From Anaeromyxobacter dehalogenans 2CP-1 (lineage in GTDB: Bacteria; Myxococcota; Myxococcia; Myxococcales; Anaeromyxobacteraceae), in the NCBI RefSeq assembly GCF_000022145.1, contig NC_011891.1, positions 4,136,501 through 4,200,500 of the forward strand: 64,000 bases of DNA, in the 5' to 3' direction. The notes under the pieces are model-generated. The model was given only the letters and a program-made list of their open reading frames with translations. It was not told the origin of the DNA and searched no databases. The position numbers and the translations under genes were made by a program. Positions 30,179 through 59,329 of this stretch are shown in pieces (position 1 is the first letter of the stretch; each line of letters starts with the position of its first letter).

Positions 30179-30186
30179 GAAAAAAA

Positions 30187-30600
30187 GACCGGAGCCGCCC
30201 TGTAAGCCGGGTTCTGTTCCGCGGGAAACCCCGCGGCGACGAACATTCATCTCGGACGCGCGTTGCCGCGCGTCTCCAGCGAGCATACCCGGAGGCCTGG
30301 ACCGGGCCGGTCTTGCCCTCCCGCTCGCGCGGGTGGGACGCCTCCCTATTCGCTCTTGCACCGCGTGGGGTTTGCCGTGCCGCGCCGGTCACCCGGCGCG
30401 CGGTGCGCTCTTACCGCACCGTTTCACCCTTGCCACGCACGCCGGTCGCCCGGCGCCGTTCGGCGGTCTGTTCTCTGTGGCACTTTCCTGCGGGTCGCCC
30501 CGACCGGCCGTTGGCCGGCACGCTGCCCTCTGGTGCCCGGACTTTCCTCGGCGGCCCCCTTCCCTGCAGGACCGACGCGTTCGCCCGGGCGGCTCCGGCG
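30187..30600 (-). ncRNA. rnpB: RNase P RNA (class A)
   Basis: Catalytic RNA that trims tRNA 5' ends. The minus strand shows the universal blocks in order: GAGGAAAGTCCGGGC near the 5' end, CAGAGGGCAG, AAGGGTGAAACGGTGCGGTA, AGAGCGAATAG, and ACAGAACCCGGCTTA near the 3' end. Helix P1 pairs CCGGAGCCGCC (5') with GGCGGCUCCGG (3'), so the RNA spans about 412 nt. A run of seven T (30180-30186) follows P1 and makes it the terminator. The 5' end is set by P1 and may be off by about 10 nt. It lies just downstream of nth. Confidence 0.95.
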
Positions 30601-38845: not shown

Positions 38846-39814
38846 CTACCCCGCCGCCTCGGCCGCGACGACCGCCAGCGGGGTCGGTGCCCCCGGCGCC
38901 TTGATCCGCTCCACCAGCCGCTCGAAGGCTGCCGGGTTCGCGCGCAGCCACTCCGCCGCGCGCTCGCGACCCTGCCCGATCCGCTCGCCATCCATCGAGA
39001 AGTGCGCGCCGGACTTCTCCACCGCCCCGCGCTCGACGCCGAGGTCCACCGCCTCGCCGAAGCGGTCCACGCCCACCCCGTAGCGGATGTCGAACTCGGC
39101 CTCGCGGAACGGGGGCGCGACCTTGTTCTTCACCACCTTCACCCGCGTGCGGCTCCCCACCACCGCGTCGCCCTCCTTCACCTGGCCGATGCGCCGGATG
39201 TCCATGCGCACCGAGGCGTAGAACTTGAGCGCGTGGCCGCCGGTGGTGGTCTCCGGGTTCCCGAACATGACCCCGATCTTCATCCGGATCTGGTTGATGA
39301 AGACGACGAGGGTCTGGTTGCGCGAGACGACGCCGGTGAGCTTCCGGAGCGCCTGGCTCATGAGCCGCGCCTGCACGCCCATGTGCGCGTCGCCCATCTC
39401 GCCCTCGATCTCGGCCTTGGGGACGAGCGCCGCCACCGAGTCCACCACGATGACGTCGCAGGCGCCGGAGCGGACGAGCTGCTCGGCGATCTCCAGCGCC
39501 TGCTCGCCGGTGTCCGGCTGCGACACGAGCAGCTCGCCCAGGTTCACGCCCAGCTTTCGGGCGTAGCCCACGTCGAGCGCGTGCTCGGCGTCGAGAAAGG
39601 CGGCCACCCCGCCCGCCTTCTGCGCCTCGGCGATGGCGTGCAGCGCGAGCGTGGTCTTGCCCGACGACTCCGGCCCGAAGATCTCCACCACGCGGCCGCG
39701 AGGGAGCCCGCCCACGCCGAGCGCCAGGTCGAGCCCGATGGAGCCGCTCGGCACCACCGGCATCGCCGCCGGCTCCTCCGCCTCCCCCAGCCGCATGATG
39801 CTGCCCTTCCCGAA
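38846..39814 (-). pseudogene. recA: RecA, 3' part (codons 23 to end), split by a mobile element
   Basis: All of the RecA ATPase core is here: [20 protein letters not shown] (Walker A), [40 protein letters not shown] and the C-terminal domain. The first 22 codons are missing; they lie at 44.8 kb, beyond the element, with the FGKGS codons repeated at both ends. Upstream of FGKGSIM the reading frame meets a TGA at 39826-39828, so the only start left is ATG 39796, giving 316 residues with GGGAAGG just before it. Such a product lacks the N-terminal helix that RecA uses to contact its neighbour in the filament and is probably inactive (family knowledge). Excision would restore 343 residues. Confidence 0.92.
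39799..39814 (-). repeat. Left att repeat of element 1 (16 bp, in recA)
   Basis: TTCGGGAAGGGCAGCA on the minus strand, coding FGKGS(I) of RecA, is repeated exactly at 44774-44789. These two copies mark the crossover region of a serine recombinase element. Confidence 0.85.
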
Positions 39815-41411
39815 GCTCTGAACGGATCACCGCGTCCGATCGCTCCGCCTCCGCCGCCGCTCGTGCCACCCGACGTCACCACGCCGTTCACCTCCAGCCA
39901 ACCGTCCGGGAAGAGGAGGATCTCGCCGCCCGGCCCCACGAGCCACTCCAGGATCCTGCGCCACGACGCCTTGACGTTCTCGTAGACGGCGGCCTCCTCT
40001 GCGTCACGGGGGGCACCGAAGGCGCTGTCCGGCCAGCCGTACGAGAGGCCCTCGCGGATCTTCTCGACCGTCTGTTCCATCTCCTCCTCGTTGATCGGTG
40101 CCGCCTCGGCCGCGGCCATCCGCGCGTGGGCAGCGTCCCGAGCCGCCTCCGCCGCGTTCTGCTGCGCCCGGATGCCCTTCAACTCCGCCTCGAAGATGCG
40201 CTCGCGCACCTGCCCGAGCGTCCGCATGTGGACGAGCGTCCGCTCCTGCCGGTCCAGGGTGCGGAGCTTCTTCTCGGCGGCGGCGACCTCCTGCTTCGCA
40301 TCGTCACGCCCGGCTCGCGAGCGCTCCGCCTCGGCCTGCCTCCGCAGCCCCTCCCGCACGATCCTCGGATCGGAGAAGGCCCTGGTCAGCGAGGCCACGA
40401 GTCGCGCGTCCACGTCCGCGACAGCGATGCGCGGCTTCCCCCGCCCGCACCCGCGCGGGCAGAAGTACTTCCGCTCCCGGCGCCCGTCTCCGCCACCCGA
40501 CAACGCTGCGTAGATGCGCGGCCGCACTCGCCACACGAGGCGAGCTTGCGCAGCAGGGTGAACACCTTCGGCCGCGGACCCGAGAGCTTGTTGTTCAGCG
40601 TGAGCTGGGCGATGGCCCGCCGCTGCGTCACCTGATCCACGATGGGTTCGAGCTGGGTCGTGGCGCCGTACGTCGTGTAGCGCCCCACCGCGCCCGGCGA
40701 GTGGATGAGATGCGCCACCGTGCGCTTCAGCCACCGCCGATCCCCTCTGCCCAGCGGGCTCGGGATCCCCTTCGCGTTGAGCACCTCCGCGATCTCCCTG
40801 AGCGACATGCCGGCGAGGCACATCTCGAAGATCGACCGGTAGACCTCGGCGCGCTCCGGGTCGAGCGTCCACCCGTGCATCTTGTCGAAGCGCCGGCCGT
40901 ACGGCGGAAACCCGATGATGAGGCGCCCCTCCTGCGCTGCCCGCCGCTTCCCGGCCACCGTACGCTCCACGATCTTCCGGCGCTCCTCCGCTGCGCCCTC
41001 TGCCCGGACGATGGCCAAGATCCGGCCGGTCATCGTGCGCGGGTCCGTGATGGATCCATCGGCCTCCACGATGACAGCGTGGGCGCGGCGGATGATGCCG
41101 AAGACAGCCTCCTGCTCGTCGGGGTCGGCGTGCCGAGTCAGGCGATCGAGATGCCGGACCCGCACCTCATCGAAGCCGACTTCGTCCGCGAGCTGGGCGA
41201 GCCGCCGGATGTCCGGCCTGTCCGCGGTGGCCTTGGCGCCGCTCACGGCGAACTCGATCGTCTCCACGAGCATCCCGGGCCGGGCGAGACGCAGGCGCTT
41301 CAAGGCGGCGCGCTGGTCCTCGGGCGTGTCTCGGTCCGCCTGAGCGGAGGTGGACACCCTGATCAGCTCTATGAACCTCGGCCCCGTGCTCGGGGCGGTC
41401 GCGATCGTCAC
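39815..41411 (-). pseudogene. Large serine recombinase (frameshifted)
   Basis: The protein starts at GTG 41411. Its N-terminal resolvase domain has RVSTSAQ (nucleophile Ser20) and HLDRLTRH; the recombinase domain follows (GFPPYGRRFDKMHGWTLDPE) and then the zinc-ribbon start LASCGECGR. There the frame breaks near 40510-40520: one base is missing, and the rest continues in the next frame with IYAALSGGGDGRRERKYFCP, then CGRGKPRIAV, a coiled coil and a final LVGPGGEILLFPDGWLEVNG. As written the first frame ends at 40386. The second frame runs through the att repeat and stops at 39544 inside recA antisense to nothing else. A sequencing error is possible; otherwise the element is locked in place. 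Confidence 0.85.
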
Positions 41412-41620
41412 GATGCACCTCCGTCGTTCTGGCCCTTCCCCCAGCGCGCCTGCGCTCCCTTGCGGCCGGCGCCCGAGCGAACGGCGGCACGGATCGCCTG
41501 AACAACCTCCGGCCCGCGCACACGAGATGCAACCGCGAGCGGCAGGATCTCACCGCCCGCGCGTACCGCGACCGCAACGGCGTGAAGGCGCTGCCGCCCT
41601 CGCGCGAGCAGCGCCGGCAT
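41408..41620 (-). CDS. Small ORF coupled to the recombinase
   Basis: A 70-residue basic protein: PALLARGRQRLHAVAVAVRA, then VVQAIRAAVRSGAGRKGAQA with a RWGKGQND end. Its stop TGA overlaps the recombinase GTG (GTGA), so translation is coupled. The helical, Arg/Lys-rich sequence fits a small DNA-binding or recombination directionality protein, but no family is recognised. Coding status rests on position and the overlap. Confidence 0.4.
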   Translation of the reverse strand: MPALLARGRQRLHAVAVAVRAGGEILPLAVASRVRGPEVVQAIRAAVRSGAGRKGAQARWGKGQNDGGAS

Positions 41621-41809
41621 GACGCGGCGGTGGAGGGTGCGCTCTCCGTCGCGGCCCTCCTCGTCATCATCGCGATCGGGGTGCCCTGGCTGCTCGCGAA
41701 GCTGGCTGGGCGCGCCGTCCCGACGTCGGTGTAGCCGCAGCCCCGGCCGCGGCGCTGGACGACCAGCGGGAGAGGATCGCTCCGCCGGCCGGCTAGAAGC
41801 GTCGTCGGG

Positions 41810-41846
41810 TTGGCTCGCTTCGAGACGGCGCGTTAGGATGCGCACC
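41810..41846 (+). promoter_or_regulatory. Predicted promoter of the sce7726 gene
   Basis: TTGGCT (41810-41815) and TAGGAT (41834-41839) with an 18-nt spacer lie 7 nt before GTG 41847. The -10 box overlaps the upstream ATG 41838, so that ATG cannot be in the transcript if this promoter is used. Confidence 0.55.
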
Positions 41847-42428
41847 GTGCGCGACCTCGACGTTCGCCTTGCGCTACATGAGACGGTACTCGCGCGGCAT
41901 CGCGACGACCCGGAGACGATCGTCATCGACGAGTTCGGGTTGAACTGGGGCGTGGTCCGCGTGGACGTCGCGGTCGTGAACGGGACCATCCACGGCTACG
42001 AGATCAAGAGCGACTCGGACACGCTCGACCGGCTTCCCGTGCAGGCCGAGATGTACGGCCGCGTCCTCGACCGAGTCACCCTGGTCGCCGGCCGCCACCT
42101 CGCGGCTGCAGAGCGGCAGGTGCCGGACTGGTGGGGGCTCTGTGAGGCCATCGAGGTCGCGCCCGGGCAGGTAAGGCTCCGGTCCGTCCGGCGCGCCCGG
42201 TCGAACCGGAACCTCGACCTGAAGGCCGTCGCGATGCTGCTGTGGCGCGACGAGGCCCTGGCCATCTTGGAGGAGATGGGCTGCGCGGCAGGGCTCAGAG
42301 GCAAGCCCCGCCGCGCTCTCTACGGCGCCCTCGTGGAGCGCCTTAGTTCGACGCAGCTCCGCTCGCGGGTGCGGCGGGCACTGAAGCGCCGAGGGCCAGC
42401 TTGGAGAGCTGGTCCACCACGAACGTGA
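41847..42428 (+). CDS. sce7726 family protein
   Basis: A 193-residue protein of the sce7726 family, named after a Sorangium cellulosum gene. The hallmark words are visible: DVRLALHETVLARHRDDPET, then VIDEFGLNWGVVRVDVAVVN, HGYEIKSDSDTLDRLPVQ, VTLVAGRHL and VPDWWG. The E-x-K core (EIKSDSDTL) after a VDVA strand resembles a PD-(D/E)XK nuclease site (inference). GTG 41847 is preferred over ATG 41838 because the -10 box covers that ATG. It converges with, and overlaps by 86 bp, the beta-family gene, its usual partner. A defence role is suspected but unproven. Confidence 0.85.
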   Translation: MRDLDVRLALHETVLARHRDDPETIVIDEFGLNWGVVRVDVAVVNGTIHGYEIKSDSDTLDRLPVQAEMYGRVLDRVTLVAGRHLAAAERQVPDWWGLCEAIEVAPGQVRLRSVRRARSNRNLDLKAVAMLLWRDEALAILEEMGCAAGLRGKPRRALYGALVERLSSTQLRSRVRRALKRRGPAWRAGPPRT

Positions 42429-43476
42429 TGTGGTGGTTGGTCGCGACCCGCCGCCACGTCTCGTGGTTGCCCGACCCGACGGTCCCGCTGGCGCACGCCG
42501 CGATGTAGTCGTCGCCCGCGCTGAACGCCGACCCGCAGTACGCCGGGTGCTTGACCACCAGCTTGCTCAGCGCGGTGAACTGGCCGAAGCCGTAGTTCTT
42601 GACGTTCCGGCCGCGGAAGATGACCCACTCGTCATCGCTCGTGTACCGGATGCTGGCGCTGATGAGGATGACGCGCGGGTCCAGCTCCTGGAGGTCCCAG
42701 TGCGCGACGGCGTAGTCGCCGTAGGTGGGCCGTCTCGGGAGGGAGCCGAGGGCCTTCCAGAGCGCCCACTCCGCGCGAGGCAGCGTGTGGACCCCGGGTG
42801 CGATGCCGCTCAGGTTCAACGGGAACGCCGTGGCGACGATGGTGAACGTCCGCCACGCCTTCAGGTTCGGGACCTTGCCGATGGCGCTCGCCGCCAACGC
42901 GGCGTTCACGGTCGTCTTGTTGGCCGACACGTCCTGCATGTCGATGACGACGTCAGCCGTCTTCTGCGTGACGCCGGTGGCCAGCAGCGCCTTGCTCACG
43001 GCCACCGGGAACGCGGGCGCCATCACCGCGTCGAGGCCCTCCCGCAGGCAGACGCCCCGCCGGTCCTTCTTGTGGATGCCGGCCGCGGCCTGGAGGATGT
43101 CCTGGGTCGCGCCGGTCGAGATGACCGGGATGGCGAGGATGGCCGCCGCACGGAGCCGGTCGAAGAGCCCGGTGAGCGTGGCCCCCGTCGCCTGGTTCGG
43201 CGGCAGGAGGCGGATGTCCACGAAGACGGGGTGGGCCGTGCCCCAACTCGACTTCATCTCCGCGATGGCGTCGTCCAGGTGCTTGGACAACGTCTTCTTG
43301 GCGGCGCCGGTCTCGGGGTCGGTGGGGACGGGAACGACCTCGACCAAGGGCGTGCAGGCCGCCTTCACGGCGGGGTCGAGGTCCTTCAACGCGCGCGCCT
43401 CCCCGCGCTTCCACTTCAGGACCGGGACGTAGTGCTGCTCGGAGAACTCCATGTTGAACTTCTGATCTGCTTCCAT
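42343..43476 (-). CDS. Beta family (sce7725-like) protein
   Basis: A 377-residue protein of the beta family (T4-beta-like), often found next to sce7726 genes. It starts with EQHYVPVLKWKRGEARALKD and then has a TIM-barrel-like series: CTPLVEVVPVP, AHPVFVDIRLL, IPVISTGATQDIL, ADVVIDMQDVS. TFTIVATAFPLNL, WALWKAL and a YGDYAVAHWDLQE stretch continuing with LDPRVILISASIRYT close the domain. AGGAGAG lies 8 nt before the ATG. It is convergent with sce7726, with tails overlapping by 86 bp, so the pair can be coregulated by antisense. No signal or membrane segment. Confidence 0.85.
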   Translation of the reverse strand: MEADQKFNMEFSEQHYVPVLKWKRGEARALKDLDPAVKAACTPLVEVVPVPTDPETGAAKKTLSKHLDDAIAEMKSSWGTAHPVFVDIRLLPPNQATGATLTGLFDRLRAAAILAIPVISTGATQDILQAAAGIHKKDRRGVCLREGLDAVMAPAFPVAVSKALLATGVTQKTADVVIDMQDVSANKTTVNAALAASAIGKVPNLKAWRTFTIVATAFPLNLSGIAPGVHTLPRAEWALWKALGSLPRRPTYGDYAVAHWDLQELDPRVILISASIRYTSDDEWVIFRGRNVKNYGFGQFTALSKLVVKHPAYCGSAFSAGDDYIAACASGTVGSGNHETWRRVATNHHITFVVDQLSKLALGASVPAAPASGAASN

Positions 43477-43796
43477 AAGCTACTCTCCTCATTAAGGACG
43501 CTGGTGCGCGGCTTACACCCAGCGCGAAATGCGCGGGTGGGCCCACACCGGATTTCGGCCGCGGGACTAAGTGTTCGCGCCTGCGGTCGATTCAGGCGAA
43601 ACGCGCAGTCTTCCCGTTCTCGGCAGGCCAGTGTCCGTGCCGTTCCAGGCAGCCGCTTGTTCCGGGGTCCTTGACGAGGAAGGCGGAAAGTACGAAATTC
43701 CGCCCGTTCACCCCACGTCGTCGGATCGAGACTGGGCTGCTGATGTCTCCGAGGGCCTGCGGCTGCAACCGCGGGCCCTCACCGTCTTCCCTGCTA
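43477..43796. other. Region between wHTH and beta-family genes
   Basis: 320 bp on the minus strand with no gene. It holds the hairpin at 43751-43780 and another inverted repeat GGCGGAA/TTCCGCC (43681-43703), and must carry the beta-gene promoter. Confidence 0.4.
43751..43780 (-). terminator. Hairpin after the winged-helix gene
   Basis: GAGGGCC-T-GCGG pairs with CCGC-G-GGCCCTC around a 6-nt loop, 17 bp after the stop of the gene at 43797. No clear T-run follows. Confidence 0.5.
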
Positions 43797-44234
43797 CTAG
43801 TTCCTCTTCATCACCACCTCGCACTGATGTTGCCGCGAGCAGAATTCGCCGCGACCATGGGACAAGATGCTCCCGTCCTGTCGGAGCCGGTGCAGCGCAA
43901 CTCGCACGGCGGAGCCGGCGCGCGGGAGTCCCAGCGCGCGTGCGATCGTAGACGGCGAGAAGGTTTCGTCAGGGTGCTCGTCCAAGAGTTTGACGATCTG
44001 GGTCGCGACGGAGACCTCCCGGGCAGCACCACCTCCGAACGCACGAGATGGATGGTAGAGCACCTCCACGTCTCGCGCCGAGAGTGCGGGAAGCTCCTTG
44101 GACACGACAGCGGGCTCCTGAGCCCGATCTTCGCCGTGGAGCAGCGCGTCGAGTTGACGCTCCAGTCGCGCCACCTCGTCTCGCGCCTTCGCGATCTGCA
44201 TCGACAACTCGATGACCTGCTCACGTCGCCCCAT
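43797..44234 (-). CDS. Small coiled-coil and winged-helix DNA-binding protein
   Basis: A 145-residue protein. Residues about 3-38 form a coiled coil (EQVIELSMQIAKARDEVARL), then a linker, then a winged-helix fold: IVKLLDEHPDETFSPSTIAR followed by ALGLPRAGSAVRVALHRLRQ and DGSILSHGRGEF. It is a likely transcriptional regulator of the element. Its promoter carries a 10-bp palindrome between -35 and -10, which suggests autoregulation. The start codon follows the -10 box by 10 nt, so the leader is very short. Confidence 0.7.
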   Translation of the reverse strand: MGRREQVIELSMQIAKARDEVARLERQLDALLHGEDRAQEPAVVSKELPALSARDVEVLYHPSRAFGGGAAREVSVATQIVKLLDEHPDETFSPSTIARALGLPRAGSAVRVALHRLRQDGSILSHGRGEFCSRQHQCEVVMKRN

Positions 44235-44244
44235 GGTGAAGTCG

Positions 44245-44272
44245 ATACTAAGCCCCGTAACGTTACAGTCAA
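44245..44272 (-). promoter_or_regulatory. Promoter with internal palindromic operator of the wHTH gene
   Basis: On the minus strand TTGACT (44272-44267) and TAGTAT (44250-44245) are 16 nt apart. The spacer contains the perfect palindrome GTAACGTTAC (44257-44266). A repressor bound there would cover the promoter. Confidence 0.6.
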
Positions 44273-44427
44273 TCTGAGAAACGTTCCGCGTAACACGTCC
44301 AGCTCGAAAACCCCTCTGCCGTCAAGAGGTTGCGCAGGATCGCGGCATGTTGTCGCGGACGTAACTCGTTACCGGACTCCTGGACACTCCGAGCACCTGC
44401 GCGCCAGGTACACTGGCTGGTTCACAT

Positions 44428-44720
44428 CTAACCACGATGGTCTGACATCGAGGGAGGGCGGCGCCGTAAGTCCATCGAACTGCTGCAGATTTTAGCCCCG
44501 CTTCGGTCGACTTCATCACGCAGGGTGATGGTGCCGTCTGGGCTCGTGTCGGCGCGCCCGACAAGCAGCGCCCAGAGCACCTGGTGCGGGTCGCGCCCGC
44601 GGCAGAGGTCGGCCGCGATCTCCCACAGCTCCTCTGCTCCCAGCGTGCGACGTTCACCGCCGACGGCGCCGTCGTGGGCAGCGCCGTCGGGAACACCAGC
44701 TCGGTCTTCTTCGCCTTCAT
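44428..44720 (-). pseudogene. Short broken ORF at the element end
   Basis: It starts MKAKKTELVFPTALPTTAPS in one frame and continues in another with LGAEELWEIAADLCRGRDPH, then QVLWALLVGRADTSPDGTIT. The slip is near 44665. Both parts look coding, so this was probably one small gene. In the circular element its ATG would overlap the recombinase stop (ATGA), which makes it the next gene of the recombinase operon. Function unknown. Confidence 0.4.
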
Positions 44721-44773
44721 GGCGCCGAGCGTGGAACGACCAGCCGGAGCGGGAACCCGCGCGCGGGAATCCG

Positions 44774-44789
44774 TGCTGCCCTTCCCGAA
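44774..44789 (-). repeat. Right att repeat of element 1 (16 bp)
   Basis: An exact second copy of TTCGGGAAGGGCAGCA, here at the end of the recA 5' fragment. The bases on either side differ from those at 39799-39814, so the repeat is exactly 16 bp. Confidence 0.85.
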
Positions 44790-44852
44790 CTGCTTCTCGA
44801 TGCCGGCCACGGCATGGCCCAGCGCCTTCCACTTCTCGCTCAGCTTGCTCAC
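44774..44852 (-). pseudogene. recA: RecA, 5' part (codons 1-26)
   Basis: The start GTG at 44852 gives VSKLSEKWKALGHAVAGIEK followed by QFGKGS, the N-terminal helix and linker of RecA. After the repeat the frame enters the element (TDSRARVPAPAGRS). The rest of recA is about 5 kb away at 38846-39814. The 5' end lies 58 bp downstream of the comM stop, so comM-recA was a tandem pair. The native recA promoter stays with this fragment, so the ATPase part has lost it. Confidence 0.9.
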
Positions 44853-44910
44853 GTCCTGCCTCGCTTCTCCCGCCGGCGGCGGGGGTGGTGCCGCCCGCGG
44901 GCGGCGTGGA

Positions 44911-45612
44911 TCACAGGAGCGGGCGGTCCAGCGCGCGGTACTGGATCGCCTCGGCCACGTGCGCCGCCTTCACGGCCTCGTCGCCCTCCAGGTCGGCGAT
45001 GGTGCGCGCCACCCGCAGCACCTTGTCGTGCGCCCGGGCGGACAGCCCGAGCCGCGCCACCGCGTCGTCGAGCAGGCGCCGCCCCGCCGCGTCCGGCGCG
45101 CAGATCCGGCGCAGCGCCGCGCCGCGCAGCCGCGCGTTCACCGGCGCGGTGCGGGGCCGGCCCGCGCCGCCTGCCGCTCGCGGGCCCGCGCCACGCGCGC
45201 CCGCACCTCGGCGCTCGGCACCCCGGGCGCGCCGCCGGACAGGAGCGCGGGCGGCACCGCCGGCACGTCCACGTGCAGGTCGATGCGGTCGAGCAGCGGG
45301 CCGGAGATCCGGCGCCGGTACGTCACCAGCTCGTGCGCGGTGCAGTGGCAGGCGCGGGTGCGATCGCCGTGGTGGCCACACGGGCACGGGTTCATCGCCG
45401 CCACCAGCATCACCTGCGACGGGTAGGTGACCGAGCGTCCCGCGCGCGCGATGCACACCTCCCCGTCCTCCAGCGGCTGGCGCATCGCCTCGAGCACGTG
45501 CCGCCGGAACTCGGGGAGCTCGTCGAGGAACAGGACCCCGTGGTGCGCGAGGGAGATCTCGCCGGGCCGCGGCGCGCTGCTGCCGCCCACCAGCCCGGCG
45601 TCGGAGATGGAA
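44911..45612 (-). pseudogene. comM: ComM/YifB Mg-chelatase-like ATPase, 3' part (frameshifted)
   Basis: The C-terminal half of the branch-migration helicase Com[41 protein letters not shown] (Walker B), [31 protein letters not shown] and, in another frame, the end [20 protein letters not shown] with [11 protein letters not shown]. One base is missing near 45145-45160. The 5' part is at 51782-51979. About 165 residues in between, including Walker A, are not found, so the gene is dead. In known transformers ComM extends recombination joints; in Acinetobacter comM is an island hotspot. Confidence 0.88.
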
Positions 45613-45930
45613 GCGTACCGCCTTCGCGGAGCAGCTTCGCGAGGCCTGCGCCGCGATGGCGGGATTCCTCTGCCTTCTAGCGACGACCGCTACGACTGCG
45701 TTGGCCGTGAGCGCGTCGACTTCGTGGTCGCGGACGTGGCCACATCCATCGCAGATTCGCTGATGACTGGCGCTACGGTCGATGCGATGGTGCTCAGTCT
45801 CTTGCAGTGCGTCATCGACGCCCGGAGGCGAGTGCCTTCACAAGACGTCGCGACGTCCTAGTCATGTCGATGTGTCCCTGGCGAGTATTCGTTCCCGCTG
45901 CACGGGACCCGGCGGGGAAACCAGCACGAA
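45613..45930. other. Left edge of the comM island, no confident gene
   Basis: About 320 bp after the comM junction. An 84-codon plus-strand frame starting at ATG 45607 (ending in [20 protein letters not shown]) is open but has no family or good ribosome-binding site. This is probably the remnant of a deleted element end. Confidence 0.3.
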
Positions 45931-46491
45931 CTACTGTGGCCTGGTCGCAGACTGCTTGCCAGCATCCTCGTCGAGGGACGTGAACCACACATCGAGGTTC
46001 TGCTTGATCTGTAGGAGCGACACTAGGAGCAGAACGATAGTGCCACCCGCGAACGACAGGCACGCTGCCGCCGCCCACCAGCGCGGGATAAGCCCAACCG
46101 TCAACTGAAGCGCTGACGTTACAAGAGCGGCAAGGATGGAGAAGAACAAGAGATGACTTAGCCGCCTCAGCGGTGCGTAGTGTGACTCGGTGTGTCCGAA
46201 CGCTCGAGCCCGTTCCGCGTGCTCCTTGTAGGCGGCGGAGTCGTACAGCCCCTCCTTCATCTTCACGAGCACGAACGTCTTCAGCGACAGCATGAAGCCG
46301 CCGATTGTTAGGAATCCGGCGAAGAAGCTACCGCGCATGTTCTTCGTAAAGAACTCGAAGACTGGGTCAACTTGCCCAGAACCAGGCGCCGGCAGAGCGT
46401 GATGGAACCACCACGCGGCGACTGCCGCCGGCAGAGCGCCCACCGCAAACACGCCAAAGACGAACACCCAGACGAACAGGGACCGCATCAC
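45931..46491 (-). CDS. Four-helix membrane protein, second gene of an island operon
   Basis: A 186-residue protein with four membrane helices (about 4-28, 54-76, 111-135, 138-162) and a charged cytoplasmic loop (KMKEGLYDSAAYKEHAERAR) between helices 2 and 3. Unknown family. It starts at GTG 46491, overlapping the stop of the upstream gene, or at the next ATG. The DNA is less GC-rich than the backbone. A membrane effector partnered by a soluble protein is a common layout of defence or toxin pairs (inference). Confidence 0.65.
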   Translation of the reverse strand: MMRSLFVWVFVFGVFAVGALPAAVAAWWFHHALPAPGSGQVDPVFEFFTKNMRGSFFAGFLTIGGFMLSLKTFVLVKMKEGLYDSAAYKEHAERARAFGHTESHYAPLRRLSHLLFFSILAALVTSALQLTVGLIPRWWAAAACLSFAGGTIVLLLVSLLQIKQNLDVWFTSLDEDAGKQSATRPQ

Positions 46492-47399
46492 TGCACCTCA
46501 AAGATGTCCTTGTTCTTCTTCGCCGCGTCCAACAGCGCCTTGATCATCGCCGACTTCGCAAACTCTTCGACCTTCAGGTTCATCGTCTTAGCTGCTTGGC
46601 CGAACTCGACGTCGCCGAACTTCTCGTAGTTGTTCAGCAGGTTGATGATCTGCTCGTGTCCATCTTCGTCGTCGCCCACGATTCTACCCTTCGCGTCGGA
46701 CAAACCCTTCAACACGGAGAGTACCGCAGCCTTCACCTTGCTCTGGCTCTTGTCTCGGTCGAAGACGTACTCCTCTCGCGCGAGCGTGATGAGGTCCTTC
46801 ATGACAGGAGCAAACAAGGGCGCTTGCTGAGCCTTTAGAGCGCCGAAGTCAATGCGGAGCCGCTTCACACGACTCATCGCCTCGACCAGTTCGGGGACGT
46901 CCTCGTTACGAACGAGTTGGGTCAGCTTCAGCCTGCTCGACAGCCCCGCCCGAATGGTCTTCTTCTTCTTCTCGGTGACCTCGCCGCTGGCCTCGGCTGC
47001 CGAGATCGCGCTCTCAACCTCGCGCCGCACCAGCTGCTTGAGGTGATGGTCGAGGTACTCGCCGAACTTACGAACCCCCATCGACTGATGGTAGTGCTGG
47101 TACAGACCTCGACGCGTCGCCTCGTTGATCACGAAGAAGTTGAAGTCGATGACGGCGCGTCCAGCGGCGACCTCTCTGACTTCGATGACCAGGTTCTCCT
47201 TGGCGAGTTCGCACACCTGCCGCTGATCCTTGGTCGACAGGACTAGGCCAACGAAATAGCCGTCCTTCTTCGCTACGCGGATGATCCGGTCATAGAGCGC
47301 AAACCGCGCTGGCGAAGCCTTCTGGAGGAAGGTGGTCAACTCCGGAAGGCCCAGCGGCCCTTCACCCTCGAGCGCGAATCCAAGATACCGAATCTTCAC
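46488..47399 (-). CDS. Unknown soluble protein, first gene of an island operon
   Basis: A 303-residue soluble protein of unknown family, starting at GTG 47399 with GGAGG 5 nt upstream. The N-terminal 110 residues are mixed alpha/beta (VKIRYLGFALEGEGPLG, GYFVGLVLSTKDQRQV, AVIDFNFFVINEATRRG), the middle has a Lys-rich turn (EVTEKKKKTIRAG) and the rest is helical, with a NLLNNYEKFGDVEFGQAAK segment. No enzyme motif is seen. A TATATT -10 box lies at 47440-47445. The stop overlaps the start of the membrane-protein gene, so a two-protein system is likely. Confidence 0.65.
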   Translation of the reverse strand: MKIRYLGFALEGEGPLGLPELTTFLQKASPARFALYDRIIRVAKKDGYFVGLVLSTKDQRQVCELAKENLVIEVREVAAGRAVIDFNFFVINEATRRGLYQHYHQSMGVRKFGEYLDHHLKQLVRREVESAISAAEASGEVTEKKKKTIRAGLSSRLKLTQLVRNEDVPELVEAMSRVKRLRIDFGALKAQQAPLFAPVMKDLITLAREEYVFDRDKSQSKVKAAVLSVLKGLSDAKGRIVGDDEDGHEQIINLLNNYEKFGDVEFGQAAKTMNLKVEEFAKSAMIKALLDAAKKNKDIFEVQ

Positions 47400-47713
47400 A
47401 TGTCCTCCGCTAGGCGAGAGGGTGCCGACATCCGGCGGCAATATACCGGGCGAACCGCTCTCGGAGTAAACGTCTCCACTGGAACGATGACGTCTCTCGG
47501 CTACGGCAGAACGCGAAGTCCCTGCGATGTGACCCCAATGTGTGTCCGACCGTGCGCCCGACAGCGTCAGCTGTCGCCTGTTCACGGTACGTCGCGGCGA
47601 CGCTGGGTGAGACGGTTGACGGTCCGCGCGGAGACGCTGCTACCGCCACGCACACGCCGCGACAGCGAGACGTCACCCCCACTCGGCCCCACGTTCAACT
47701 CTCCCGGGGCTCC
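47400..47713. other. Divergent promoter region in the island
   Basis: 314 bp between the two-gene operon and the HNH gene. On the minus strand TATATT (47445-47440) is a good -10 box. On the plus strand GACAGC-GTCA-GCTGTC (47560-47575) is an inverted repeat. No gene is seen. Confidence 0.4.
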
Positions 47714-48148
47714 ATGACCAGGACCACGGTTGCGCTGGTCGCCGCGCTCGCTGCTGCTCCGCTGCTGGTGCCGACGGCCGCTGACGCGGGCACCCACGTC
47801 CGCGGCTACTACCGGAAGAACGGGACGTACGTCGCGCCGCACTACCGGAGCTCGCCGGGCTCGGGCGCCGTCCGCAGCCACCCGCCGCGGACGTACCGGC
47901 GAACGCCGACGCCCTCGTACACGCCGCGCGATCATCACGGGAAGGTCAAGCGGAGCAGCTCGGCGAAGGCCGCGTTCCGGCGTTCGCACCCCTGCCCATC
48001 GACGGGCCGCAGCTTGGGCGCGTGCCCGGGCTACGAGGTGGACCACGTGACGCCGCTCGCCTGCGGTGGCTCGGACGCCGCCTCGAACATGCAGTGGCTC
48101 ACCACGCGAGAGAACCGGCGCAAGGGTGCCGCGGGCTGCCGGCGCTGA
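47714..48148 (+). CDS. Exported HNH endonuclease
   Basis: A 144-residue protein with a signal peptide (TTVALVAALAAAPLLVPTAA, cleavage after ADA). A basic Tyr/Pro-rich linker follows, then a compact HNH domain: CPGYEVDHVTPLACGGSDAA followed by SNMQWLTTRENRRKG. The His of VDH and the Asn of NMQW are the expected catalytic and metal residues. Export suggests a periplasmic or secreted nuclease, for instance against incoming DNA or competitors; the target is unknown. Confidence 0.75.
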   Translation: MTRTTVALVAALAAAPLLVPTAADAGTHVRGYYRKNGTYVAPHYRSSPGSGAVRSHPPRTYRRTPTPSYTPRDHHGKVKRSSSAKAAFRRSHPCPSTGRSLGACPGYEVDHVTPLACGGSDAASNMQWLTTRENRRKGAAGCRR

Positions 48149-48404
48149 CGCGCCTGATGGTCGGTTCGGTCACGACGGGCCGACGCCACGCACATCGCCG
48201 CACAGCAGTTGCCTACCCCTGCGCGGAAGCGATCCCTTACACTCGGTCCGCCTCGCGCGCCGGGTCGTTGAGCGGCCACACCCCCCGGACCGTTTCGGCC
48301 CCGCGCGCGCTGGCACCTGCCGCAGATCGCGGCCGGGTGATTGCGGCGCCCGACCCCGCAGCGCGTCGTGCAGTAGGTCGCGCTTCCATGCGCGCAGGTT
48401 CACT

Positions 48405-50204
48405 TCACCGCTTTCCCTTTGTTCGCAGAGGCTGCCCGATGGCCTCCTCAGACGGTCGTCCCGCCTGTTCACGTATTAAGGGCGTGGCCGTTTCTGACGA
48501 GTGCTCAGGAACGGTAACAAGCATCCCTCGGCGCGGAGGCGGCGCGGGTAGCGCCATGCCCGGCAGCACCAAGGTGCCACCGGCGGGCGGCGTGGTTTCG
48601 GTAATTTCGACGCCGGGATAGTCGACCCGCCGCCCGGCAAAGATGTCTGACGCGGATACGATCTGAAGCCGAGGGTACTTGCGCCCGGTATGAGGGTCTT
48701 TCCACATGCCCGCACGCGCCGCCTCGACCCGCATCTCCTGCGTCGGATCCTGCATCGTGACAAGCACGCCCATCGCGGCCTTTTCTCGCTGAACTGTGCC
48801 GTGAAGTTCTCGTACGTTGGCTGGCGTAACTGTGCGTCCGCCCTTCACGGAGACAACAATTTCGTAGACTCGCCCGTCAGCGCGGAACTTGATCATCCCG
48901 TCGATTCCGCGATCGCGTCCGCGCCTGCCCTCGCGCCGTCCCGGGACACCACCTACTGGGTGCGCACCGATCCGATGCACGGCCCACCACTGGAATTGGT
49001 ACTTATCCGTCTCGGCCAGATCCCGGGCGCTCTCCAGGTCCTGCGGCTCGCCAGCAAGTTCGTACTGAATCCCAGGGAACCCGCTCGCGAGCCGGTCTCT
49101 GATCACCCGGATCGCCAAGTACGTCACATCGATACCGATCCATTCACGGCCTAGGCGCTGAGCCGCTTCCACCGCGGTGCCGCACCCGCAAAAAGGATCA
49201 AGAACAACGTCGCCGGGACAGGAGGAGGTCGCGATGATGCGCTCGAGCAGTGCGAGCGGTTTTTGTGTCGGGTACCCCAGTCGCTCCGCTGCCTGGGAGT
49301 TCACGGGAGGGATATCGTCCCAGAGGCTTTGAACCTTCACGCCCTTCGACTCATCGAGATACATCTTCAGGCGAAGTTGACCGCCGCGTTTCGTCGGGAA
49401 ATGGAGGCGCCCGGCGGTGTCGTACTGCCGCATCCTCTCCGGATCGCAGGACCACCCGTTACGATGCGGCTGGTACGTCACCCCGTTGCTCGCGTGATAC
49501 GCGTAGTGCAGGTTCGGCCGCGGCTTCGGGCTCCGCAGCGTGACCGACTGCCAGACGCGACCGTCCTCGTCCTTCCCGCTAAAGCGCTTCGCCGCGTACT
49601 CCGCCGTGAACGGGCGATACTGACAGTGGAACTGGTACTCGGGAGATCGCGTGTAGAACAAGATGGTGTCGGTTACCGCACCGAAGTTTCGCCGCGGGTC
49701 ACCGTGGCTGTGCGTTCGCTTCCATATGATCTCGTTTCGGAATTGCTCTGGACCGAAGATGGCGTCCATGAGCAGTTTCAAATAGTGGCTGGCGGTCGGA
49801 TCGCAGTGCAAGTAGATGGAGCCGCTCCGTGCGAGCACGCGCCGCAACTCGATCAACCGAGGCGCCATCATCACCAGATACGCCGCCATGTCACTTCTCT
49901 GCGGAAGCGCCTTGTAGAACGCTTCGATCAGCACGGACACCGCAGGCGGGATACCGTGGTTCACGGAGTCTGGCCCGGTCAGCTCCTCGTATGTCTCCTG
50001 CGCCTGCTGGTCCCAGTGCCAGCAATCCTCAAACGCCCGGAGTTGCGCGACTGACGACGAGAGGTCGTGCTCCTTGAAGAGCACGTTGTAGTCCTGGTTG
50101 GAGTTGAAGGGAGGGTCGAGGTACACGAGATCGACGCACTCATCCGGAACGAACTCGCGCAGCATTGGCAGGTTGTCGCCGTAATAGAGCTTTCCGGGTC
50201 GCAT
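48405..50204 (-). CDS. DNA methyltransferase fused to a PD-(D/E)XK nuclease-like domain
   Basis: A 599-residue protein. Residues 30-33 are DPPF (motif IV, followed by [10 protein letters not shown]) and FCGCGT near 337 is motif I; this order marks a beta-class N6-adenine or N4-cytosine methyltransferase. After about residue 400 comes a second domain with [20 protein letters not shown], then VKGG (K near 453), and a [10 protein letters not shown] helix, the core of a PD-(D/E)XK fold. Its usual E or Q is Ser. This suggests a one-protein restriction-modification enzyme or a relative. It has no partner gene nearby. The start follows a clear break in coding at 50204. Confidence 0.85.
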
Positions 50205-50268
50205 AAATTACGCCTATCACTCAGCGTAATCCGTTCTCAAACTTATCGACCGATTCCAGGCGATATCG

Positions 50269-50640
50269 CTAACGGCGCGAGACGCCGAGGCGCTCGAGGT
50301 TCCGCCTGCGCGCCCGGGCGATCCCGCACTCCGGCGAGCAGGTCCGGGCGCGCCGCCGCATTAGCTCGCGCAGGCCGCGCGCGCGGCGCCGCTCGAGCGC
50401 CTCGCCCCACCCGACGCCGCACTCGGAGCAGCTCCACGCCGCCCCGCGTGGCTCCCGGATCCGGACGCGCTTCGCGCGCGCCCAGCGCGCCTCGGCGAGC
50501 CGGCGGGCACGGGCCCTCGAGCAGGTCGGGGAGCAGGTCCTCGCCGCGATCGTCAGCGGCGGGAGGCCGGCCCGCCGGCGGCGCCGGTCGGCCGTCGTCC
50601 ACGGGCACCGGCACTCGGAGCAACGCCACCAGGAGGGCAC
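50269..50640 (-). CDS. Duplicated Zn-ribbon (CSEC/ARTCSP) protein
   Basis: A 123-residue basic protein made of two similar units: WRCSECRCPWT with ARTCSPTCSRARARRL, and WSCSECGVGWG with ARTCSPECGIARARRR. Each has C-x2-C and C-x3-C, so two zinc sites are likely. The Arg-rich linkers suggest nucleic-acid binding. The start is GTG. An overlapping frame on the same strand lacks such order and is rejected. Unknown family. Confidence 0.6.
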   Translation of the reverse strand: MPSWWRCSECRCPWTTADRRRRRAGLPPLTIAARTCSPTCSRARARRLAEARWARAKRVRIREPRGAAWSCSECGVGWGEALERRRARGLRELMRRRARTCSPECGIARARRRNLERLGVSRR

Positions 50641-50749
50641 GAGGACAGCCTACGCGATTGTGGCGGGCATGCGATCGACTCTAGGTGTTCTCACTGGTTG
50701 TCAGACCCTCATGGATCCGTGTCCGCACCCGCAGGAGGAGGAGATCACC

Positions 50750-50938
50750 ATGTCGAACTCGAAGAAGCTGATCGTGGCCGGGTACGTCGCGGAGATGTTC
50801 ACGCGGACGGACGTTCCGACGCTGGGCGGATCGGTGACGCTCAAGGGCTTCCGGTGCAAGATGTGCGACCTCACCGTGCTAGCGGAAACGAAGGAGCAGG
50901 TTCCGCCGCATGAGTGCGACCGCGGATCGGTGCTCTAG
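50750..50938 (+). CDS. Small putative zinc-binding protein
   Basis: A 62-residue protein: SNSKKLIVAGYVAEMFTRTD, then LKGFRCKMCDLTVL and PPHECDRGSVL. CKMC and HEC may bind one zinc ion. GGAGGAGGAG lies 6 nt before the ATG. Its stop is directly followed by the GTG of the next gene. Confidence 0.55.
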   Translation: MSNSKKLIVAGYVAEMFTRTDVPTLGGSVTLKGFRCKMCDLTVLAETKEQVPPHECDRGSVL

Positions 50939-51130
50939 GTGGACCCGCTCGTCCTGCTCCTCGCGGTCCCGGTCGGGCTCGCGCTGACCTGGGTGTCGTT
51001 CTACGTGGCGGCGCACGCCGTGCTCAAGGCGTGGCGCCGGTCCCGGATGCGCCAGGTCGCGGCTGAGGAGGACCTCGCCGACGCCCGTGCCGAGGAGCGC
51101 CTCGCGCGGATGCGGACCGGCCGCGGCTAG
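50939..51130 (+). CDS. Small single-pass membrane protein
   Basis: A 63-residue protein with one N-terminal membrane helix (LVLLLAVPVGLALTWVSFYV) and a charged cytoplasmic coil (RQVAAEEDLADARAEERLAR). It starts at GTG immediately after the stop of the previous gene, so it is cotranscribed. Function unknown. Confidence 0.55.
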   Translation: MDPLVLLLAVPVGLALTWVSFYVAAHAVLKAWRRSRMRQVAAEEDLADARAEERLARMRTGRG

Positions 51131-51480
51131 AACGCCGCGCCGACCAGCAGCACCGCGCCGCCCGGCCCGCCGGCGACGGTGGCAACGCCCTCCGCCTGCC
51201 ACCGCCAGAGGCTCACGCGGCGCGTGGCGACGGCGCCGGCGAGCCACCCCGAGGGCGAGACCACGCCGAAGCGGCTGGGGCGATCCTCGTGCGCCTGGCA
51301 GGGCTCCGCGGGAGGCGTCCGCGCGGCGAGCGTCGCCGGCGCCGAGAACAGCTGCCGTGTCACCAGCGCGCCGCTCCCCTCGAGCCGCGCCCCGAGCGTG
51401 CCGGTCAGCCGGTACTCGCCTGCGGCCAGGCCGCGCTCGAGCACCAGGTCGGTGCCGAGCAGGAGCTCGCCGCCGCCCGG
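51127..51480 (-). pseudogene. Truncated coding remnant opposing the recombinase fragment
   Basis: The minus strand reads RPGGGELLLGTDLVLERGLA then GEYRLTGTLGARLEGSGALV and ends GGPGGAVLLVGAAF, a beta-rich protein end. Its beginning runs into the opposite-strand recombinase fragment, so the 5' part is gone. It converges with the membrane-protein gene and overlaps its stop. Confidence 0.35.
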
Positions 51481-51762
51481 GCGCGGGCCGAGTCGGCCGA
51501 GCGGCGGAGCGCCGTCGCGGCCGAGCTCGAGGTGAAGGTGGCCGCGCTCCGCGAACGCCTCGCCGACGCGACCGACCAGGACTGGCGCCAGCTCGTGGAG
51601 ATCCTGTTCCCGCGCACCGCGGCGACCGGCATCCGCGTCTTCCCGGACGGCCGGATCGACCTGCGCGGCGCGCTCTCGCTGGACGACGGCGGCGAAGCCG
51701 CGCTCTCGCGCGCCGCGCGCGACACCTCGCGCGTGCTGGTCCGGCTCGCGACGCGATCGTAG
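51470..51762 (+). pseudogene. Serine recombinase, C-terminal remnant
   Basis: About 97 residues: a coiled coil (ELAAARARAESAERRSAVAA, ELEVKVAALRERLADATDQD) and the end WRQLVEILFPRTAATGIRVF continuing PDGRIDLRGALSL. The FPDG..xxxxG pattern also ends the recombinase of element 1. The catalytic domain is missing. It stops 19 bp before the comM 5' piece, the same place relative to an att site as in element 1. Confidence 0.6.
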
Positions 51763-51781
51763 GCCGGCGGAGGGTTCTCCG

Positions 51782-51979
51782 AACCGTCACCCGCTTCGAC
51801 GGGAGCTTCACCCCGAGGTTCCGGATGGCGGCGAGCACCCGCACCTCGGCCTCGCGCACCGGCCCGGCCGCGAGCCCGACGATGTAGAACCCGGGCAACC
51901 CGACCGTCGCGTCCATCTCGACGTCCACCGGGACGGCGTTCACGCCGAGCACCGCCCCGGATCGCACGCGCACGAGCAT
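51782..51979 (-). pseudogene. comM: ComM/YifB ATPase, 5' part (66 codons)
   Basis: MLVRVRSGAVLGVNAVPVDV, then GLPGFYIVGLAAGPVREAEV and LGVKLPSKRVTV are the N-terminal Lon-protease-like domain of ComM. After KRVTV the family continues NLAPADL, but here the DNA changes to unrelated sequence. The partner 3' part is at 44911-45612. It lies downstream of the UDG gene on the same strand. Confidence 0.88.
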
Positions 51980-52150
51980 GCACGCGCGTTCAGCAGCCCG
52001 CGTGCCAGCGGCGGGCGCCCGCCGCGCCCCGTGGATCCGCGGGTCCGGGCCGCGCGGCAGGCGCGGCGAGCGGCGATCGGGTCCGGGGAACGTCCGCCGC
52101 GGCCGGCGCGCGGACGCACCGGGCGCCGGCGCTCGCGCCGGGATCGGCGC

Positions 52151-58704: not shown

Positions 58705-58810
58705 GCCGGCCCACAATCCCCGGGCGCACGGAGGACCACCTACCGTTGCTCCCTTCCGGGCCTGGCGGGGTTCGATGGCCCCCACGTCGCCCGAGGATTC
58801 TGGGCCGGCT
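58705..58810 (-). ncRNA. ffs: Signal recognition particle RNA (4.5S type)
   Basis: About 106 nt. The minus strand shows the Ffh-binding hairpin with CAGGCCCGGAAGGGAGCAAC and the GGTAGG turn, with long complementary ends (AGCCGGCCC at the 5' end and GGGCCGGCT at the 3' end). The 3' end is followed by seven T (58698-58704) as terminator. It directs inner-membrane protein targeting with Ffh. It lies upstream of dnaX. Confidence 0.95.
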
Positions 58811-58870
58811 CGCCCGGCGTGACGCCGGCTCGCGGGTCCCAACTCCTTAACGTCCTGGGACCTGCAATGC

Positions 58871-58960
58871 TGGCGGAGAGGGTGGGATTTGAACCCACGG
58901 TACCGTTCCCGGTACACACGATTTCCAGTCGTGCACCTTCAACCGCTCGGTCACCTCTCC
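58871..58960 (-). tRNA. tRNA-Ser (anticodon GGA)
   Basis: 90 nt with encoded CCA. The acceptor GGAGAGG pairs with CCTCTCC, the anticodon loop is ACTGGAAAT within the CACGA/TCGTG stem, the long variable arm is TACCGGGAACGGTA-like, and the T loop reads TTCAAAT. It reads UCC and UCU codons. Confidence 0.96.
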
Positions 58961-59238
58961 TTATACCTGGGGGAATGCTCGGCTCCCCTGTGCTTCGCCA
59001 GGGGAGCCTGCGCTCCCCCAGCCCCCCTGCTCGCTACGGCCCACGCTACCGCGTGGGCCTGCGCTCGCTGAGGTTACCGCTTCCAACTCTCCAGGGAGTG
59101 CTCTGCTCCCTCCCTGGCGGTGGGGCCGAACGGGCCCCGTGATGTCTTCTCGGGAGCTCTCTATGCCTCTCCCCTGACCTCGGCTCCGGCCTCGTCTGTT
59201 CTCGCCGCAGCGAGCGAGCCCGCAGTCGTGGTCCAAAT
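58961..59238. other. Spacer between the two tRNA-Ser genes with several hairpins
   Basis: No gene. Inverted repeats are GGCTCCCCTG/CAGGGGAGCC (58981-59008), GGCCCACGC/GCGTGGGCC (59038-59059, 4-nt loop) and a CCAGGGAG/CTCCCTCCCTGG pair near 59090-59120. They may end transcripts or act as processing sites. Confidence 0.5.
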
Positions 59239-59329
59239 TGGCGGAGAGCGAGGGATTCGAACCCCCGGTACCGTTGCCGGTACACCTGATTTCGAGTCAG
59301 GCGCCTTCGACCAGCTCGGCCAGCTCTCC
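59239..59329 (-). tRNA. tRNA-Ser (anticodon CGA)
   Basis: 91 nt with encoded CCA. GGAGAGC pairs with GCTCTCC; the anticodon loop is ACTCGAAAT in the CCTGA/TCAGG stem; the variable arm is TACCGGCAACGGTA. The T loop TTCGAAT is canonical. It reads UCG. Confidence 0.96.

Follow-up and report, generated by a model that had tools for sequence, protein, structure and literature searches.

The window analysed here, a stretch of 64,000 nucleotides of the soil bacterium Anaeromyxobacter dehalogenans 2CP-1 (G000; contig NC_011891.1, positions 4,136,501 to 4,200,500), holds a copy of the DNA-repair gene recA in two pieces with foreign DNA between them. This raises the question of how the gene came to be split, whether the split could be reversed, and how the cell lives with it. 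A sequence-only reading of the same DNA had proposed that a serine-recombinase element of about 5 kb had entered recA behind codon 26, with the same 16-bp core at both junctions.

Junctions of the split gene and its empty sites

Our analysis confirmed this arrangement, placing both pieces of recA on the minus strand and fixing the size of the insert behind codon 26 at 4,959 bp. The features of the split locus are as follows:

38846..39814, minus strand: recA1 tail, a 316-aa open frame from the ATG of codon 28 (39796), with its stop at 38846
39799..39814, minus strand: attR core TTCGGGAAGGGCAGCA, an exact 16-bp copy
39815..44773, no strand: inserted element between the cores, 4,959 bp, without counterpart at the orthologous site of G002-G006 and G008
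39815..41411, minus strand: serine recombinase gene, broken, adjoining attR, both halves matching phrog_95 (integrase)
41838..42428, plus strand: sce7726-family protein (NF033832; PADLOC 'cll'), convergent with the Beta gene
42343..43476, minus strand: Beta-family protein (PF14350; PADLOC PD-Lambda-2_C and 'beta')
43797..44234, minus strand: 145-aa protein, possible winged HTH, with sub-threshold DUF3253, HTH and AbiEi matches only
44774..44789, minus strand: attL core TTCGGGAAGGGCAGCA, an exact 16-bp copy
44774..44852, minus strand: recA1 head, codons 1-26, with a GTG start at 44852 and ending in the core on the attL side

The head comprises 79 bp, that is 26 codons and one base, and the tail scores 429 bits against the Pfam RecA model and 498 bits against NCBIfam TIGR02012, the latter match beginning at model position 23. 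The core occurs exactly twice in the whole window, once at each junction, as against a mean of 0.02 matches in shuffled sequence (100 shuffles, up to two mismatches allowed), with none of the 100 shuffles containing two. A search of related genomes for an empty site, which the sequence-only reading had recommended, recovered an uninterrupted recA1 with the site in place in six of the eight other Anaeromyxobacter genomes searched (G002, G003, G004, G005, G006 and G008). In these relatives the recA1 flanks join directly across the core, where between 0 and 3 bases differ from the 16-bp sequence of the window. The search of G007, a 66% complete genome, found no recA1-type gene, and G001 proved to be a second carrier, with an identical head-insert-tail order and both cores. 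An assembly or strain-mixture artefact, which would have undone the entire proposal, has next to no probability, because the window sits within one contig of 5,029,329 bp, the split locus lies on a single contig in G001 too, and G001 repeats the structure amid flanks that are ~4.8% divergent; an assembly artefact was accordingly rejected.

Recombinase and attachment sites

The serine recombinase encoded by the insert combines the PF00239 and PF07508 domains with a C-terminal extension. When the ends of the element are rejoined, the reconstructed attP displays a dyad in which 17 of the 25 positions agree and which has the GG of TTC-GG-GAA exactly at its middle; this is the best centre in the reconstructed region, and 0.04% of window centres reach its level. 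Such a dyad around the central dinucleotide is as expected for the attP of a serine integrase, and the crossover most likely took place at this GG. The attB dyad is weak (12/25, with 6.6% of window centres reaching as much). The direct core repeat at both ends, the single-copy empty site in relatives, the attP dyad and the recombinase gene beside attR all support the view that a serine recombinase integrated the element site-specifically, close to where recA begins. The sequence-only reading had called an insertion at this end of a gene unusual; the position near the 5' end stands, and the oddness was overstated, as the preference for 3' ends is mainly that of tyrosine integrases, and serine integrases commonly enter coding sequence.

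The recombinase of G000 carries a frameshift in a region that the cysteine pattern suggests to be a zinc ribbon, and that of G001 has an in-frame stop at another place; the frameshift could be a sequencing error, from which the stop in G001 is separate. No second match to the N-terminal 276 aa of the recombinase was found in G000 or G001 (E <=0.001; scoring covered 12 of the 28 first-look candidates in one genome and 12 of the 21 in the other), and a scan of genome contigs with the recombinase gave one distant match, at 29% identity. The intact recombinase expected of a mobile large-serine-recombinase element is thus seen in neither carrier. Because the gene is broken differently in the two, the element looks locked in, and, judged from its sequence, it looks like the relic of a large-serine-recombinase integrative element rather than an active one.

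These observations also bear on the idea of a programmed switch, in which the element would leave recA1 in certain circumstances and so restore it, like skin in sigK. Serine recombinases do excise and restore genes in skin-like elements, and recombination between the exact direct repeats would give back an uninterrupted recA1 frame. However, elements of the excision-regulated skin/nif type depend on a working recombinase to put the gene back together. Here each carrier has its recombinase broken, at a different place; the search found no other match to its N-terminal part in either genome, and the adjacent comM is short of ~0.6 kb. We consider a switch very improbable.

The broken comM gene, the shared block and the second recA

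comM, the neighbour of the split recA1, is broken as well: it holds a 6.2-kb insert in which part of a related recombinase survives. Both disruptions fall within a block common to the two carriers, with these features:

39597..52096, no strand: near-identical block of G000 and G001, bounded by ~4.8% divergent sequence
44911..45611, minus strand: comM (YifB) C-terminal fragment, within the shared block, with a frame change in G000 relative to G001
45612..51793, no strand: second insert, lying within comM, about 6.18 kb long and replacing about 0.6 kb of that gene
51523..51696, plus strand: remnant of the C-terminus of a related serine recombinase, matching the G008 relative at 50% across 58 aa (E 2.6e-9)
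51794..51979, minus strand: comM N-terminal fragment, about 62 codons

At the DNA level, 51631-51670 is an inverted match to 39882-39921. The 12.5-kb block with both inserts differs by ~0.2% between two species that are ~4.8% apart around it: its 500-bp bins (n=23) show 0.0-0.6% divergence, and the 49 bins outside it have a median of 4.8%, two of these also being low (0.0 at rnpB and 0.8% at 36001). Given this difference between inside and outside, the block most likely moved between the species by homologous recombination in its flanks. We rejected two separate insertions of the element, one per species, since the comM and recA-head DNA lying between the inserts is just as similar in the two genomes as they are; the recA1 element and the comM insert would instead have travelled together as one block.

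The history that we strongly favour is one in which a small integrative element that encoded its own serine recombinase would have entered codons 22-26 of recA1 by attP x attB recombination, the host being an Anaeromyxobacter ancestor and the target the comM-linked recA paralogue. The recombinase gene would later have been broken separately in both carriers, leaving the element probably fixed, and the 12.5-kb block would have passed between species.

The sequence-only reading had seen in this event the disruption of a key housekeeping gene. That part did not survive: a second full-length recA lies at G000:C1:4592950, 417 kb away on the same contig, and a cell devoid of any recA could be dismissed. 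We typed the split gene as the comM-linked paralogue (the recA1 type of M. xanthus), and the intact one as the recA2 type, because of the comM linkage and the agreement in pI with the M. xanthus proteins. In G121, G041 and G047 the recA that adjoins comM is of this type. The G121-like second RecA type, taken from G124, G134 and G136, has a theoretical pI of 7.08, and the other RecA type, taken from these three genomes and G121, one of 6.50, the published values being 7.04 for M. xanthus RecA1 and 6.5 for RecA2 (PMC7029660). The second paralogue is a host gene found across the order, and the cell would survive the cut in recA1 owing to its intact recA2-type gene.

Integration would have divided recA1 into a head of 26 codons and a tail cut off from it, with very probable loss of RecA1 function. 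Complete loss is unproven because the tail ORF is undamaged and its omega is 0.13: the 316-aa frame is free of frameshifts and stops in both carriers, and omega between them is 0.134 for codons 94-344 and 0.141 for the whole tail, constraint before and after the insertion not being separable in these values. Against G006, omega is 0.11 for each carrier. An N-terminally truncated RecA might hence still be made from codon 28, with reduced function or as an interfering product, and the core itself supplies an SD-like GGAAGGG ahead of the ATG. Yet the N-terminal helix of RecA is required for subunit contacts, the divergence of the tail may mostly predate the insertion, and the lower omega of four intact recA1 pairs (0.017-0.063, first 300 tail codons) hints at relaxation in the split gene rather than function, all of which leaves such a product improbable. 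For recA2, which is intact in both carriers, comparison of G000 with G001 gives an omega of 0.355 from about 20 changes.

Related recombinases and known systems

A search of the phylum with the recombinase N-terminus returned some match in 63 of 195 genomes, mostly at 25-37% identity, and eight relatives at 40-51% identity, with lengths of 486-634 aa. One of the eight, 46-50% identical, lies inside comM in another myxobacterium (G156), and in G039 another is found ~1.1 kb upstream of a comM-recA1 pair that is uninterrupted; neither comM nor recA was found near the recombinase in six of the eight flanks examined, several of which are short contigs. These placements bring to mind the 'intragenomic conflict' proposed by Croucher and colleagues: the recombinase family would aim at recA1/comM so that transformation-driven homologous recombination of the host cannot delete the element. 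The parts of their article used here (PMC4774983) document insertions of mobile genetic elements (MGEs) in comM and other competence genes, two related recombinases have struck two adjacent recombination/competence genes in one lineage, and G000 has a ComEC gene. Against this, no comM or recA was found in the flanking stretch of the six relatives, RecA2 remains in the host, the block itself seems to have been moved by homologous recombination, and comM and recA1 are adjacent, so that two insertions may reflect one permissive locus. Adaptive targeting is therefore possible though unlikely. That a lineage of small myxobacterial serine-recombinase elements specialises on comM-recA1, disabling a homologous recombination/transformation branch, protecting the element from curing, and being tolerated only through the second recA, we regard as a doubtful proposition.

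Competence-gene disruption by MGEs affects comM, comYC, comFA, comK and radC, with recA not named among the disrupted genes in the portion of the article on which we draw (Croucher et al. 2016, PMC4774983). Relative to that portion, the Anaeromyxobacter locus is alike in having comM broken by an insert and an insertion in recA1 that strikes the same process; it differs in the serine recombinase family involved, in that recA1 itself is struck, and in the loss of ~0.6 kb of comM. Membership of this class would call for a naturally transformable host that depends on the disrupted gene for transformation.

Within the element, the Beta and sce7726 genes match the PADLOC beta, PD-Lambda-2_C and cll models and NF033832, supplying the beta and cII genes of a gop-beta-cII system. 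Four further element ORFs gave no PADLOC match at E <=1, and hence no gop toxin gene, for which PADLOC includes a model; the HigB-like and Xre-peptidase (HigA-peptidase) partners of PD-Lambda-2 were not found among the ORFs scanned, the C-like component alone being recovered. Set beside the available portions of the descriptions of P4 gop-beta-cII (PMC9122126) and PD-Lambda-2 (PMC9519451), the element is alike in having a Beta/PD-Lambda-2C-like gene next to a cII/sce7726-like gene; it differs in its missing partners and in the convergent orientation of the pair. By sequence similarity the cargo pair is related to the P4 defence genes, and its role may be phage-defence-like.

Serine-integrase elements inside genes include A118 in comK, SP-beta in spsM and skin in sigK. 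The present element shares with them a serine recombinase, an att core in coding sequence and a recombinase gene adjoining one att site; it differs in its target, recA1, in its broken recombinase, and in the want of a structural PHROG match for any of its ORFs, of which five were scanned.

Among the matches listed, the closest precedent is that of the Vibrio recA islands, from which recombinase, site and rescue all differ here. As far as the consulted sections describe it, the recA mobile element (RME) of V. cholerae S24 lies inside recA by site-specific recombination, 494 bp into the gene, with 'phage integrase' and XerS genes, 9-bp inverted repeats, a length of 32.8 kb and a recA of its own (PMC4405046), and V. 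parahaemolyticus VP156 has a 19.5-kb recA island (PMC7820670). On these partial accounts the cases share an island inside recA with recA still available from another copy. In contrast to RME, the Anaeromyxobacter insert is 5 kb long, has a serine recombinase, sits in codons 22-26 with a 16-bp direct core, and brings no recA (the insert does not match PF00154), the rescue coming from a host paralogue. What is new here is the broken comM with a second insert next to the split recA1, and the 12.5-kb block common to two species; the sequence-only reading had missed both of these, and the break in the recombinase as well. With recA1 and comM both disrupted in nature and recA2 kept, the division of labour between the two myxobacterial RecA proteins becomes addressable in natural strains, and recA1 joins the recombination genes interrupted by mobile elements, by a type of recombinase unlike that of the Vibrio precedent.

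Interruption of recA and state of the inserted element

The claim of the sequence-only reading that recA is split after codon 26 by a serine-recombinase element was confirmed. The two parts of the gene are separated by 4,959 bp, and a 16-bp core, TTCGGGAAGGGCAGCA, is present at both junctions, with no further copy in the whole window when up to 2 mismatches are allowed:

44852-44774, minus, recA head, 26 codons
39814-38846, minus, recA tail

The window sits within one 5,029,329-bp contig. By its Pfam match (PF00154, 429 bits) the tail is clearly RecA, and it also matches TIGR02012 starting at model position 23. A search of relatives for an empty site, which that reading had proposed, found recA uninterrupted in six of the nine Anaeromyxobacter genomes searched (G002, G003, G004, G005, G006 and G008) and split in two, namely the window's own genome (G000) and G001 (5,013,479 bp); in G007 (66% complete) no gene of the split type was found. 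The intact protein as query had matches in 142 of the 145 genomes of the order, and among the matches listed the alignments begin at query residue 1-6, except in the two carriers, where they begin at 20.

When the element ends are joined, the resulting attP has dyad symmetry at 17/25 positions, and its centre falls exactly at GG in the TTC-GG-GAA of the core; this is the best centre in the reconstructed region, and 0.04% of all window centres reach that level. The empty site, attB, has 12/25 matches, a level reached by 6.6% of window centres. The recombinase frame (39544-40872 and attR) crosses the core without a stop, and integration therefore alters the recombinase C-terminus; the free and integrated elements would encode different C-termini. 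The G000 recombinase has a frameshift in a region that we take, from its cysteine pattern, to be a zinc ribbon, and that of G001 has an in-frame stop at a different place. No second match to the recombinase N-terminal part was found in G000 or G001 (E <=0.001; 12/28 and 12/21 first-look candidates scored). On these features the element looks locked in both carriers.

The element encodes the serine recombinase (PF00239, PF07508; both halves match phrog_95), a Beta-family protein (PF14350; PADLOC PD-Lambda-2_C and beta), an sce7726-family protein (NF033832; PADLOC cll) and a 145-aa protein with sub-threshold HTH matches only. In E. coli, the gop-beta-cII locus that satellite P4 carries acts against phages (PMC9122126), and the P4-antitoxin-like PD-lambda-2C is required for defence (PMC9519451). 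Since the element ORFs scanned include neither a gop nor a HigAB partner, we can only infer a defence role for the Beta/sce7726 cargo.

Identity of the split paralogue and selection on its tail

The wording of that reading, in which a key housekeeping recA is disrupted, was not supported as it stands: G000 keeps a second, full-length recA at C1:4592950 (L001), with 72% identity to the split-recA tail over the aligned part. As in G000, comM precedes the split-type recA in G121, G041 and G047. Both recA types co-occur, 67-75 kb apart, in four Myxococcus-like genomes of another family; the split-type RecA has a pI of 7.08 in three of these (G124, G134 and G136; G121 was left out, its start being untrimmed), and the other type a pI of 6.50 in all four. 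The published M. xanthus values are 7.04 for RecA1 and 6.5 for RecA2 (PMC7029660). From comM linkage and pI, we infer that the split gene is of the recA1 type. M. xanthus deleted for recA1 is reported to survive UV less well and to be impaired in recombination and in SOS induction through LexA, with growth unaffected. A published statement gives Anaeromyxobacter a single recA (PMC7029660), which is contradicted in six of the eight other members of the genus searched, each with two uninterrupted copies. G002 additionally has a partial C-terminal copy (L023, C1:1745692-1745934; 81 aa, 72% identity) about 2 kb from recA1.

Both carriers keep the tail frame open. Between G000 and G001, omega over codons 94-344 is 0.134; four pairs of intact recA1 genes give 0.017-0.063, and the carriers' own intact recA2 genes give 0.355. 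The carrier branches have 5 nonsynonymous and 13 synonymous, and 4 and 10, codon changes, respectively. Together these values neither show decay nor prove function.

The broken comM and the block shared by the carriers

A single comM match (PF13335) was recovered in each of eight of the nine genus genomes and none in G007. In both carriers comM is broken, with about 62 N-terminal codons followed by an insert and then the C-terminal part, so that ~6.18 kb of foreign DNA replaces ~0.6 kb of the gene. The insert (45612-51793) possibly carries defence or modification cargo, judging from its genes:

48405-50204, minus, DNA methyltransferase with Mrr-like domain
47540-48148, plus, HNH protein, weak sub-threshold match
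46488-47399, minus, gene without family match above cut-off
45931-46491, minus, gene without family match above cut-off

The insert also holds, next to the comM N-terminal fragment, a 58-aa recombinase remnant that shares 50% identity (E 2.6e-9) with the C-terminal end of the G008 recombinase related to the one in recA1. Eight relatives of the recombinase (40-51% identity) were examined with their flanks: that of G156 ends within comM at about codon 220 (4.4-kb contig, one side visible), that of G039 is located ~1.1 kb upstream of comM and recA1, which are neighbours and intact there, and for the remaining six neither comM nor recA occurs in the stretch examined.

Across 39599-51990, which spans both inserts, 20 substitutions plus 2 single-base indels separate G000 from G001, with 0.0-0.6% divergence in 23 bins of 500 bp; the median of the 49 bins outside is 4.8% (one at rnpB 0.0, one at 36001 0.8%). 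The nearest flanking differences are at 39596 (~200 bp past attR) and 52097 (~300 bp past the comM insert). The simplest cause of this sharing is homologous recombination between flanks, with transfer in one direction or the other. Near-continuous matching to G001 starts at 30184, where the RNase P RNA gene (30187-30596, minus) has its 3' end, and 1-30183 is mostly without a collinear counterpart in the compared G001 region, which suggests a strain-specific island adjoining rnpB. At 58709-59329 a gene for small SRP RNA lies close to two tRNA-Ser genes, all on the minus strand.

Comparison with known systems

Among the open-licence papers listed, none was seen to describe this locus or an insertion of a serine-recombinase element into recA. 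Competence genes, comM among them, are known to be interrupted by elements, which have been proposed to evade curing by transformation in this way (PMC4774983). Islands within recA are likewise known in Vibrio; these bring their own recA, unlike the G000 element (PMC4405046, PMC7820670), and the Vibrio RME differs from it in both recombinase and insertion site (PMC4405046).
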